Below are positions 8,152 to 58,347 of a stretch of 64,000 nt of DNA, piece by piece. This DNA comes from Streptomyces sp. NBC_01298 (lineage in GTDB: Bacteria; Actinomycetota; Actinomycetes; Streptomycetales; Streptomycetaceae), in contig NZ_CP108414.1 of NCBI RefSeq assembly GCF_035978755.1, positions 4,836,001-4,900,000 of the forward strand, read 5' to 3'. The stretch's first letter is position 1; each line of letters opens with the position of its first letter. A program made the translations under genes and the position numbers. The notes below the pieces were generated by a model that was not told the DNA's origin, ran no database searches, and saw only the letters and a program-made list of their open reading frames with translations.

Positions 8152-9050
8152 CCTGGTGGTGCACCGGGCTTCGGTGGAACGACGGCCGGCCCGCCATGGG
8201 CTGGTACGGGCCGGGACCGGGACGGGGCGAGCGCACCAGCCTCCTCGGGTACGGGCAGCCGCTCGCCTTCGCCGCCCGGGGAGAGCGCCGCTGCCTCGGC
8301 ATCCGGCGGGCCGGACGGCGGACGCCGTGCCCGACGGGGCGGACCGTGCCCGGCCGGGCCGGGAACGCCCAGTGCCCCGAGTGCGCCGGCCTGGACCGCT
8401 CCTTCTCGGTGGCGGCCGACACCAACGCCGGTGATCCGCGTACCTACCGGGTGTACCTCGCCTGGTTCGGGGCCGGACTGGTCAAGGTGGGCATCACCGC
8501 CGAGGAGCGCGGGTCCGTCCGGCTGCTGGAGCAGGGCGCGGTGGCCTGGGCCTGGCTGGGGCGCGGGCCGCTGATGGCGGCCCGTCGGACCGAGGAACTG
8601 CTGCGGGCCGCGCTCGGAGTGCCCGACCGGATCGCCTATGCCCGTAAGCGGGCCGTGCGGGGGGACGTGCCGCCGGTGCCCGAGCGGGCGGCGGAGGTCG
8701 CCGCCCTGCACGCGCGGGCGGCCGCGCTGGAGGGGTGGCCGGAGTCGCTGGAGAGGCTCGAGTGCGAGGTGACCGACCACGCGGGGGTGTTCGGGCTCGA
8801 CGTGCTGCCCGCCCCGGCCCGGGTGATCACCGAGATGGTGCCCGGCGGAAGCGTCGCCGGCCGGCTCGTCGGCGCGGCCGGGCCCGATCTGCACTTCGCC
8901 GACGGGCTGGTCGTGGACACCCGGCTGCTCGCGGGGTGGGAGCTGGTGGCGCCCGGGGAGGGCAGGGAGGGCGGTGCCACCGACGTGCCCGTGGCGGGGA
9001 TCCCGGCTCCCGGGCGGGACGCCGCGGTCGCGCAGGACGGGCTGTTCTGA
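8148..9050 (+). CDS. DUF2797 family protein
   Basis: 300 residues, a conserved actinobacterial family of unknown function. The N-terminal part has a cysteine set suggestive of a metal site (RCLGIRR, TPCPTG, AQCPECAG, residues about 49-84). The middle carries the family's YLAWFGAGLVKVGITAEER block (about 103-120), which resembles a GIY-YIG-like nuclease core; that resemblance is an inference. It overlaps the Lrp gene by 4 nt at GTGA and is probably expressed with it. No signal peptide or membrane segment is visible. Confidence 0.8.
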   Translation: MTWWCTGLRWNDGRPAMGWYGPGPGRGERTSLLGYGQPLAFAARGERRCLGIRRAGRRTPCPTGRTVPGRAGNAQCPECAGLDRSFSVAADTNAGDPRTYRVYLAWFGAGLVKVGITAEERGSVRLLEQGAVAWAWLGRGPLMAARRTEELLRAALGVPDRIAYARKRAVRGDVPPVPERAAEVAALHARAAALEGWPESLERLECEVTDHAGVFGLDVLPAPARVITEMVPGGSVAGRLVGAAGPDLHFADGLVVDTRLLAGWELVAPGEGREGGATDVPVAGIPAPGRDAAVAQDGLF

Positions 9051-56397: not shown

Positions 56398-56424
56398 AAG
56401 GCCCCGGTCGATGACCGGGGCCTT
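56398..56424 (-). terminator. Intrinsic terminator of tRNA-Gly(GCC), copy 2
   Basis: Perfect 12-bp stem AAGGCCCCGGTC / GACCGGGGCCTT with a GAT loop, 10 nt after the tRNA. Confidence 0.88.
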
Positions 56425-56433
56425 CATTCGCTG

Positions 56434-56506
<73 letters not shown>

Positions 56507-56585: not shown

Positions 56586-56657
56586 AGCGGGTGACAGGGA
56601 TCGCACACTGCGCCTTCCCCCTGGAAGGAGGATGTTCTGCTACTGAACTACACCCGC
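56586..56657 (-). tRNA. Aberrant tRNA-Gly(TCC) (possible pseudogene or non-standard tRNA)
   Basis: 72 nt. The acceptor GCGGGTG/CACCCGC, D-stem GTTC/GAAC and anticodon stem TCCTC/GGGGA with loop CTTCCAG (anticodon TCC) are present. But the T-arm is broken: stem strands CAGTG and CCTGT do not pair and the loop reads TGCGATC, not TTCGA. The D-loop AGTAGCA lacks the normal GG. A rival 6-bp hairpin CCTTCC/GGAAGG could also mask the anticodon. It nevertheless has a plausible promoter and a functional tRNA-Gly(GCC) behind it. Confidence 0.75.
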
Positions 56658-56704: not shown

Positions 56705-56735
56705 ACACTAGCGGATCGGTGGGGGTGGATGGCAA
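56705..56735 (-). promoter_or_regulatory. Promoter of the tRNA-Gly unit
   Basis: TTGCCA (56735-56730), a 19-nt spacer and TAGTGT (56710-56705) on the - strand, about 50 nt before the aberrant tRNA-Gly, just beyond the stop of the Lsr2-like gene. Confidence 0.6.
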
Positions 56736-56743
56736 ATCGGCTC

Positions 56744-57061
56744 TCAGTGCGCGGCGTTGTACTCCTCGTAGACCTTCTTGGGGATCCGCCCGCGCGGCGG
56801 GACGTCGAGGTGGTTGGAGCGGGCCCAGGCCCGGACGACCGCGGGGTCGGGGGCGATGGAGGTGTGCTTGAAGGTCTTGCCGGAGCGGGCCTGCCGCCGG
56901 CCGGCGGCCACGAAGGGGGCGAGGCTCTTCCGCAGTTTCTTTGCGTTGGCCACATTGAGGTCGATCTCGTACGACTTACCGTCCAGCCCGAAGACGACCG
57001 TTTCCGATGCATCTCCGCCATCGATGTCGTCGGAGATCGTGACTACTACGCGCTGCGCCAC
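56744..57061 (-). CDS. lsrL: Lsr2-family nucleoid-associated protein (probable LsrL paralogue)
   Basis: 105 residues with Lsr2 organisation. N-terminal dimerisation part AQRVVVTISDDIDGG and TVVFGLDGKSYEIDL; C-terminal DNA-binding part VVRAWARSNHLDVPPRGRIP with the RGR AT-hook-like motif, then KKVYEEYNAAH. Lsr2 proteins coat AT-rich DNA and silence it. GTG at 57061 with AAGGGA upstream; the longer frame lacks homology. By gene order it corresponds to the second Streptomyces Lsr2 (SCO4076), a recalled assignment. An AT-rich patch lies directly upstream. Confidence 0.88.
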   Translation of the reverse strand: MAQRVVVTISDDIDGGDASETVVFGLDGKSYEIDLNVANAKKLRKSLAPFVAAGRRQARSGKTFKHTSIAPDPAVVRAWARSNHLDVPPRGRIPKKVYEEYNAAH

Positions 57062-57422
57062 GGATATCGGTCCCTTCGTGCGACGCCGCTCCCGCTGACG
57101 TGCGCGGACGGAGCGGTGATGTCGCCTGTGTGGATGTATCGGAAGAATGCATCTTTCTGGCGTCACCGTGCACCGGAAAATACCGGTGCGACGGAGGATT
57201 CCTTTGTACCCCGATTCTCATTGCATTGCGAAGCCCAGTTAATTGTCTCCGCGTGTCCCGCCGCAATGCCGGGCGCGTGGTTTTCCGGCGGATTTTGCGA
57301 AGCGTTGGTGAAGTTGAAACGGCGTGGAGGATCATACAAGAGAGATATCTACCCGCGTAGAAATTTCCTCCAGGTACGCTGAGGGAACCGCCTTCGCACC
57401 AACCACCTCATCGGGAGTGCCA
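57062..57422. other. AT-rich divergent intergenic region between lsrL and purS
   Basis: 361 nt without a gene I can support. Sampled 60-nt blocks (57181-57240 and 57301-57360) are 47-50% A+T, well above the surroundings. It holds a hairpin GCACCGG/CCGGTGC (57170-57189), an inverted repeat GCATTGCG/CGCAATGC (57223-57230 and 57262-57269) and a possible purS promoter (TTGAAA at 57314, TACAAG near 57335). Confidence 0.6.
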
Positions 57423-57670: not shown

Positions 57671-58347
57671 GTGACCACTCGCATCGGAGTCGTCACGTTC
57701 CCCGGAACGCTCGACGACCGTGACTCTCTGCGCGCCGTGCGCCTCGCCGGAGCCGAGCCCGTATCGCTCTGGCACCGCGACAAGGACCTCCACCAGGTCG
57801 ACGCGGTCGTCCTCGCGGGCGGCTTCTCCTACGGGGACTACCTGCGCGCCGGAGCCATCTCCCGCTTCTCGCCGGTGATGGAGAGCATCATCGAGCAGGC
57901 CAAGGGCGGCATGCCCGTCCTTGGCATCTGCAACGGCTTCCAGATCCTCACCGAGGCCCACCTGCTGCCGGGGGCGATGCTCCGCAACAACCACCTGCAC
58001 TTCATCTGCCGCGACCAGAAGCTGCGGGTGGAGAACGCGGAGACCGCCTGGACCGGTGACTACACCGCCGGCGAGGAGATCTCCGTACCGCTCAAGAACA
58101 TGGACGGCCGCTACGTGGCCGACGAGCGGGTGCTGGACGAACTGGAGGCCGAAGGCCGCGTGGCCTTCCGGTACCTCGACGTCAACCCGAACGGCTCGCT
58201 GCGCGACATCGCCGGCATCACCAACGCCGCGGGCAACGTCGTCGGCCTCATGCCGCACCCCGAGCACGCGGTCGAGCCGCTGATCGGGACGGGCCGCACC
58301 GACGGCCTCCCGTTCTTCACCTCGGTCCTGAAGAAGCTGGTCAGCGC

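Follow-up and report, generated by a model that had tools for sequence, protein, structure and literature searches.

A non-canonical tRNA gene and its neighbours

The window (the whole 64,000-nucleotide stretch of Streptomyces sp. NBC_01298 DNA analysed here) carries on its minus strand, at positions 56586–56657, a 72-nt gene resembling tRNA-Gly(UCC), with U73 as the discriminator and no encoded CCA. It matches the Rfam tRNA family (RF00005) at 45.2 bits with an E-value of 8.1e-8, against a gathering score of 29, and is conserved throughout the genus (see below); ARAGORN makes no call at this position. The anticodon UCC (56623–56625) is placed by the sequence and the Infernal alignment alike, and the acceptor, D and anticodon stems pair, as a preliminary description of this DNA had stated. 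The two loops it gave as AGTAGCA and TGCGATC are also there: the D-loop AGUAGCA lies at 56638–56644, with A18 (56641) in place of G18 and G19 retained, and the T-loop UGCGAUC at 56599–56605, with G55 (56604) in place of U55, both replacements being found together in 144 of 151 distinct copies.

The same description took the strands of the T-stem to be unpaired and called the tRNA structurally broken. A wholly unpaired T-stem was rejected on the Infernal and comparative alignments, as the 5' strand GCAGUG (56606–56611) pairs with the 3' strand CCUGU (56594–56598; part of the covariation set) once the U at 56607 is bulged out, which gives G49-U65, C50-G64, A51-U63, G52-C62, the bulged U and G53-C61. 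‘Broken’ overstates the case for a stem that pairs around one bulged base. Compared with a canonical bacterial tRNA-Gly(UCC), the acceptor stem, anticodon, discriminator and four-pair D-stem are alike, whereas G18 and U55 are replaced together, the T-stem is bulged and the gene is separate from a canonical copy in the same genome; relative to that 71-nt copy it has one additional base in the T-stem, G18 changed to A and U55 changed to G. Where a canonical elongator tRNA has G18-G19, U54-U55-C56 and an unbroken 5-bp T-stem, this one has A18-G19, U54-G55-C56 and five pairs with one bulged base. Folded to minimum energy (z -2.42), the strand forms the acceptor, D and anticodon helices but no standard T-arm, which counts against the explanation we favour below; we do not lean on this fold.

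Upstream on the minus strand, a -35 hexamer TTGCCA (56730–56735) and a -10 hexamer TAGTGT (56705–56710), separated by 19 nt, form a putative promoter ending 47 nt before the gene. A generic promoter and terminator scan found nothing, yet of 61 distinct upstream regions from the genus 59 contain a pattern of this kind, ca. 50 nt upstream, whereas it turned up in 0.27% of 5550 plain shuffles; this bears out the -35/-10 pair proposed in the preliminary description as a putative promoter. The remaining 50 of the 111 distinct upstream regions examined come from other genera, where the pattern occurs in two, and a TANNNT hexamer was seen by eye in all 12 that were viewed. The normal tRNA-Gly(GCC) said to stand behind the odd tRNA is indeed present at 56434–56506 (minus strand; ARAGORN and Rfam), with a -10-like TAGAGT in the spacer ahead of it and a similar motif visible by eye in relatives. 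As for the terminator said to follow, a GC-rich hairpin at 56398–56424 (minus strand), 3' of the tRNA-Gly(GCC), is terminator-like by eye, but the scan found none. The conserved upstream neighbour, a gene at 56744–57166 (minus strand, tblastn) which we take to be Lsr2-like, has tblastn matches at all 15 loci with the bulged tRNA in one set (L184–L198) and at all seven intact loci of two genera lacking the odd tRNA (L234–L240, below). The neighbours of the odd tRNA are presumably Lsr2 and purine-synthesis genes, not wall genes. A match to the Mg-II riboswitch at 57841–57939 is below threshold (23.3 bits against a gathering score of 40) and probably due to chance.

Glycine tRNAs of the same genome

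A normal tRNA-Gly(UCC) gene, for which the preliminary description suggested searching the rest of the genome, was found at G000:C1:6066228-6066298 (71 nt; L002), and a second locus, read in six further carriers (L208–L213), holds a normal tRNA-Gly(UCC) in each. The tRNA-Gly set of the genome consists of three GCC genes, CCC, the normal UCC and the odd UCC, and there are 73 Rfam tRNA matches in all. ARAGORN called 56 other distinct tRNA sequences in the stretches read, every one of which has a GTTCRA T-loop (56/56) and all but one of which (55) show GG in the D-loop window; the A51-U63 pair of the odd tRNA is ordinary, being found in 12 of the 56.

Several minor observations concern other tRNA genes. 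The single sequence without GG in the D-loop window is tRNA-Leu(taa) at G000:C1:5553471-5553552 (L089), whose anticodon is presumably that of the developmental tRNA bldA. The normal tRNA-Gly(UCC) lies on the strand opposite to the nearby tRNA-Pro(TGG). A 45.0-bit tRNA at G000:C1:2131496-2131568 (L091), with anticodon cgat, is given by ARAGORN as Ser or Ile, and two Rfam tRNA matches of 40.3 bits each, at 3418365-3418444 and 4191854-4191933 of the same contig (L092, L093), receive no ARAGORN call.

This complement bears on whether the odd gene is a specialised isoacceptor still at work in translation, for instance by reading glycine codons differently or by being used slowly and under regulation in development. 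The anticodon loop is intact in all 145 copies tabulated under a stricter pattern (CUUCCAG in 110, UUUCCAA in 35), as such a role would want, and passages of one study report that T-arm sequence affects decoding by the M. mycoides tRNA-Gly(UCC), in the form of superwobbling (PMC13092985; related PMC10853795). However, with GCC, CCC and normal UCC tRNA-Gly genes already in the genome no decoding gap is evident, and the bulge in the T-stem would be expected to hinder EF-Tu; we consider continued service in translation unlikely.

Conservation in the genus

Searches with sequence patterns and a covariance model recovered the odd tRNA from 294 of the 295 genus genomes that were sampled. A strict pattern accounted for 289 of these and a looser one added G157, whilst G079, G169, G211 and G263 were recovered by the covariance model, which was built on 18 distinct sequences. 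The sole exception, G181, has as its best Lsr2 match a 52% paralogue, so that assembly is missing the whole locus. Almost all genomes sampled from this genus, presumably the main producer of antibiotics, carry a structurally aberrant tRNA. In the first 30 loci read (the window and 29 relatives) the odd D-loop and T-arm were present in 30/30, with three tandem copies in two genomes, and across the 295 genomes 12 have two or three odd copies, in tandem at L044, L058, L097 and L113. The two copies of G144 are arranged unlike the tandem ones elsewhere, on opposite strands ca. 4 kb apart (C134:4433-4489 and 8595-8651).

Across 57 distinct loci, pairwise identity averages 0.951 within the tRNA, against 0.658 in the 45 nt before it and 0.599 in the 60 nt after it, a difference that excludes chance. 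Across the 18 distinct sequences 99.5% of cells are paired, and in 20 cells, spread over five pairs, both sides of a pair have changed; of 500 shuffles, none reached this level for cells and one did for pairs. Further pair types were no more numerous in these sequences than in shuffles (8 vs. 8.8), and the T-stem pairs, being invariant among the 18, receive no support from covariation.

Two other explanations can be judged on these data. The first is that it is a decayed tRNA pseudogene, the simpler alternative offered in the preliminary description, which would account for the missing canonical G18 and U55, the inserted base and the lack of an ARAGORN call. It is contradicted by the retention of the oddities in 294 of 295 genomes, by the paired stem changes, by the identity of 0.951 beside flanks at 0.60–0.66, by the conserved putative promoter and by the fact that 12 of 295 genomes carry more than one copy. 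The relaxed constraint and random decay expected of a pseudogene are not seen: we looked for random, lineage-specific decay of the T-arm and did not find it in the genus, where the odd D-loop, bulge and T-loop recur in all 294 carriers. We reject the pseudogene on conservation and regard it as highly improbable; genus-wide retention and the presence of a normal tRNA-Gly(TCC) in the genome favour the dedicated tRNA that the same description had set against it. The second is a sequencing or assembly artefact, since error in a single genome might produce both an extra base and an altered loop; the same sequence class recurs across hundreds of other genomes, which makes the chance of an artefact negligible.

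Distribution in the family, order and class

The bulged tRNA is carried by 90 of the 121 genomes sampled in the family Streptomycetaceae. A loose pattern matched 69, and all 52 others were searched with the covariance model, which found the tRNA in 21 (three of g15, thirteen of g16, four of g18 and one of g23) and not in 31 (three of g24, twenty-seven of g27, and G344, whose sole Lsr2 match is a 49% paralogue). The genera g24 and g27 therefore lack the odd tRNA in 30/30 sampled genomes. In the seven of their loci that we read (L234–L240), Lsr2 is followed by two tRNA-Gly(GCC) genes in an otherwise intact locus, and the pair is possibly a replacement of the odd tRNA. In a gene tree, which is not a species tree, one set of FemX genes from these two genera (nine rows) clusters together within the family (support 85/86); this grouping suggests a single loss of the odd tRNA.

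Beyond the family, the highest covariance-model score among 15 genomes from the order's other families was 73.3 bits, and 268 class genomes outside the family reached at most 73.8 bits under stricter filters, against at least 85.5 bits for the odd class. A tRNA-Gly(UCC) pattern with a base other than G at position 18 matched 40 of 394 class genomes, all 40 in the genus of the window and none of the other 354, and a T-arm pattern used before it found 28 of 296 class genomes, again in the genus only. These class-wide searches assume a D-arm like that of tRNA-Gly(UCC), or the modelled shape, and would miss very different solutions. As these searches recovered no such tRNA from class genomes beyond the family, the origin of the tRNA looks independent of that of the staphylococcal ones discussed below. 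A phage origin was also considered and set aside, the T-arm pattern of the A18/G55 type having no exact match in viral contigs, the one kind of mobile DNA that the search covered.

Concerted change of the elbow and a constant bulge

Among 151 distinct copies (a subset of the known ones, taken from loci up to L315 and fitting a single pattern), 144 have A18 with G55, seven have G18 with U55 and none is mixed. The 18-55 elbow is altered as one unit, since only these two combinations occur. The preliminary description was right that A18 and G55 are real, but a simple loss of the G18-Psi55 contact overstates what is seen, as both or neither are present in every copy. Independent elbow events are few and there may have been only one, and the 144 copies are not 144 independent observations. 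The FemX gene tree, which contains paralogues, places some A18/G55 genomes beside the group that has the bulge only, so that its branching is compatible with either elbow state being the older. The change provides a natural experiment on the tRNA elbow.

The bulged T-stem base is present in all 151 copies, as U in 148 and as C in three (G079, G169 and one g16 genome), and in G327 (L198) the bulge is shifted by one base with the stem still paired. A 71-nt copy in L142 fits neither this pattern nor the stricter one used for the anticodon loop and stands outside both counts. Of the 151, 14 combine A51-U63 with A49-U65: one is from G327 and the others come from g16, where 13 of 14 sampled genomes show the combination. 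In g15 and g18, which sequence matches identify as Yinghuangia and Embleya, both Streptomycetaceae, the bulged T-stem goes together with an unaltered G18 and U55. A scan of named genomes for the bulge with G18/U55 returned four records: Embleya scabrispora, Yinghuangia seranimata and Streptomyces sp. SID3343, to which G337, G319 and G353, respectively, are identical over 3072 bases each, and Embleya hyalina, to which G347 is identical over 1700 bases. Natural carriers, bulge-only relatives and natural non-carriers allow direct tests in a genus that is tractable and does not cause disease.

A possible role in supplying glycine to the cell wall

Judging from its sequence and conservation, the gene at 56586–56657 is a real tRNA-Gly(UCC) gene, probably specialised for glycine supply outside protein synthesis, perhaps for the cell wall. 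The peptidoglycan of Streptomyces has a glycine bridge, EF-Tu contacts the part of the T-stem that is altered here, and glycine needs a strong T-stem. In the mechanism we propose, GlyRS would charge the odd tRNA with glycine; the bulged T-stem and A51-U63, in place of G51-C63, would sit at the EF-Tu grip and make capture for translation poor; and the free glycyl-tRNA would pass its glycine to FemX for the glycine bridge on the peptidoglycan precursor, so that one part of the glycyl-tRNA pool would serve protein and the other the wall. We give about an even chance to this reading of a functional, dedicated tRNA-Gly(UCC), disfavoured by EF-Tu and feeding a FemX wall transferase. Somewhat short of even, in our judgement, is the proposal that Streptomycetaceae evolved a wall tRNA-Gly independently of staphylococci, by a T-stem bulge and an A18-G55 elbow in place of G18-Psi55, letting wall and protein growth be tuned separately.

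The bacterial glycine identity elements given in part of PMC9976931 are U73, G1-C72, C2-G71, C35 and C36, with C50-G64 in Thermus, and the odd tRNA has all of them, so that charging is expected. In passages of PMC4052509, three S. aureus tRNA-Gly species are described with A49-U65, A51-U63 and UU or CU at positions 18-19, features consistent with weak EF-Tu binding, whilst G49-U65 is a strong EF-Tu pair. The odd tRNA of this genome has A51-U63 but keeps the strong G49-U65; taken together, A51-U63, the altered position 18 and the T-stem bulge would point to weak binding. It resembles the non-proteinogenic S. aureus tRNAs, as far as parts of PMC4052509 and PMC9976931 describe them, in its possible role, in being additional to proteinogenic tRNA-Gly (normal UCC, CCC and GCC genes coexist with it), in the alteration at position 18, in A51-U63 and in the presence of Fem-family genes in the genome, and differs from them in A18-G19 (not UU or CU), the retained G49-U65, G55 and the bulged T-stem. 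Since two staphylococcal sequence features, UU or CU at 18-19 and A49-U65 alongside A51-U63, are not found in this genome, we do not file it as a member of the S. aureus type.

A single unpaired T-stem base is shared with selC* tRNA-Cys and the minor 8/4 tRNA-Sec, whose bulge is at 51a, as described in part of the review PMC7609411; in those the acceptor stem is 8 bp and the T-stem 4 bp long, whereas in the odd tRNA the lengths are 7 bp and 5 bp, not counting the bulge, and the tRNA also has glycine identity and a changed elbow. The words ‘Streptomyces’ and ‘tRNAGly’ do not occur in the main text of that review, and among the matches listed for the open-licence part of PubMed Central no title or abstract opening describes the odd tRNA; it may be listed in a tRNA database or a paper behind a subscription.

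The odd tRNA could instead be a donor or structured RNA for some other process, whether a regulatory tRNA-like RNA, a source of stable fragments or the substrate of another glycyl-tRNA transferase. FemX-like enzymes dependent on Gly-tRNA, DhpK and Orf11, act in natural-product pathways of Streptomyces (passages of PMC12945691), and the spread of FemAB-family genes does not track the absences of the odd tRNA. A precedent for a tRNA-like gene working outside translation is the pseudo-tRNA tRNA-Other of Bacillus cereus, whose deletion thins the wall; it has a Trp anticodon, is charged poorly, lies at the edge of a genomic island and occurs in some Bacilli (parts of PMC3399842), unlike the odd tRNA, which is near-universal in the sampled genus genomes, keeps a conserved place and retains glycine identity. 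Occurrence in 294 of 295 genus genomes is likewise unlike that of accessory pathways, and a purely regulatory RNA would not need the glycine identity set; we think another such process rather unlikely, if credible.

For the wall reading, the relevant enzymes are those of the Fem family: FemX and VanK of S. coelicolor are named among wall enzymes that use aminoacyl-tRNA (passages of PMC4052509), and femX is SCO3904 (part of PMC3123327). FemAB-family matches are present in 36 of 36 genomes checked, carriers of the odd tRNA or not, among them nine of nine checked g24/g27 genomes and four of four outgroups without it. This persistence means that the odd tRNA is not obligatory for FemAB-family genes and weakens the case for a wall role. 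The lack of wall genes among its neighbours, the ordinariness of A51-U63 and the retained G49-U65 also speak against that role. Co-loss of the tRNA and FemX, considered as proof of a partnership, was not seen, with FemAB-family matches in 36/36. The closest FemX relative in the genome of the window lies ca. 149 kb from the odd tRNA. A second, divergent FemAB-family gene at G000:C1:1672773-1673483 (L310) shows 49% identity to the FemX of G018 and sits on a long branch.
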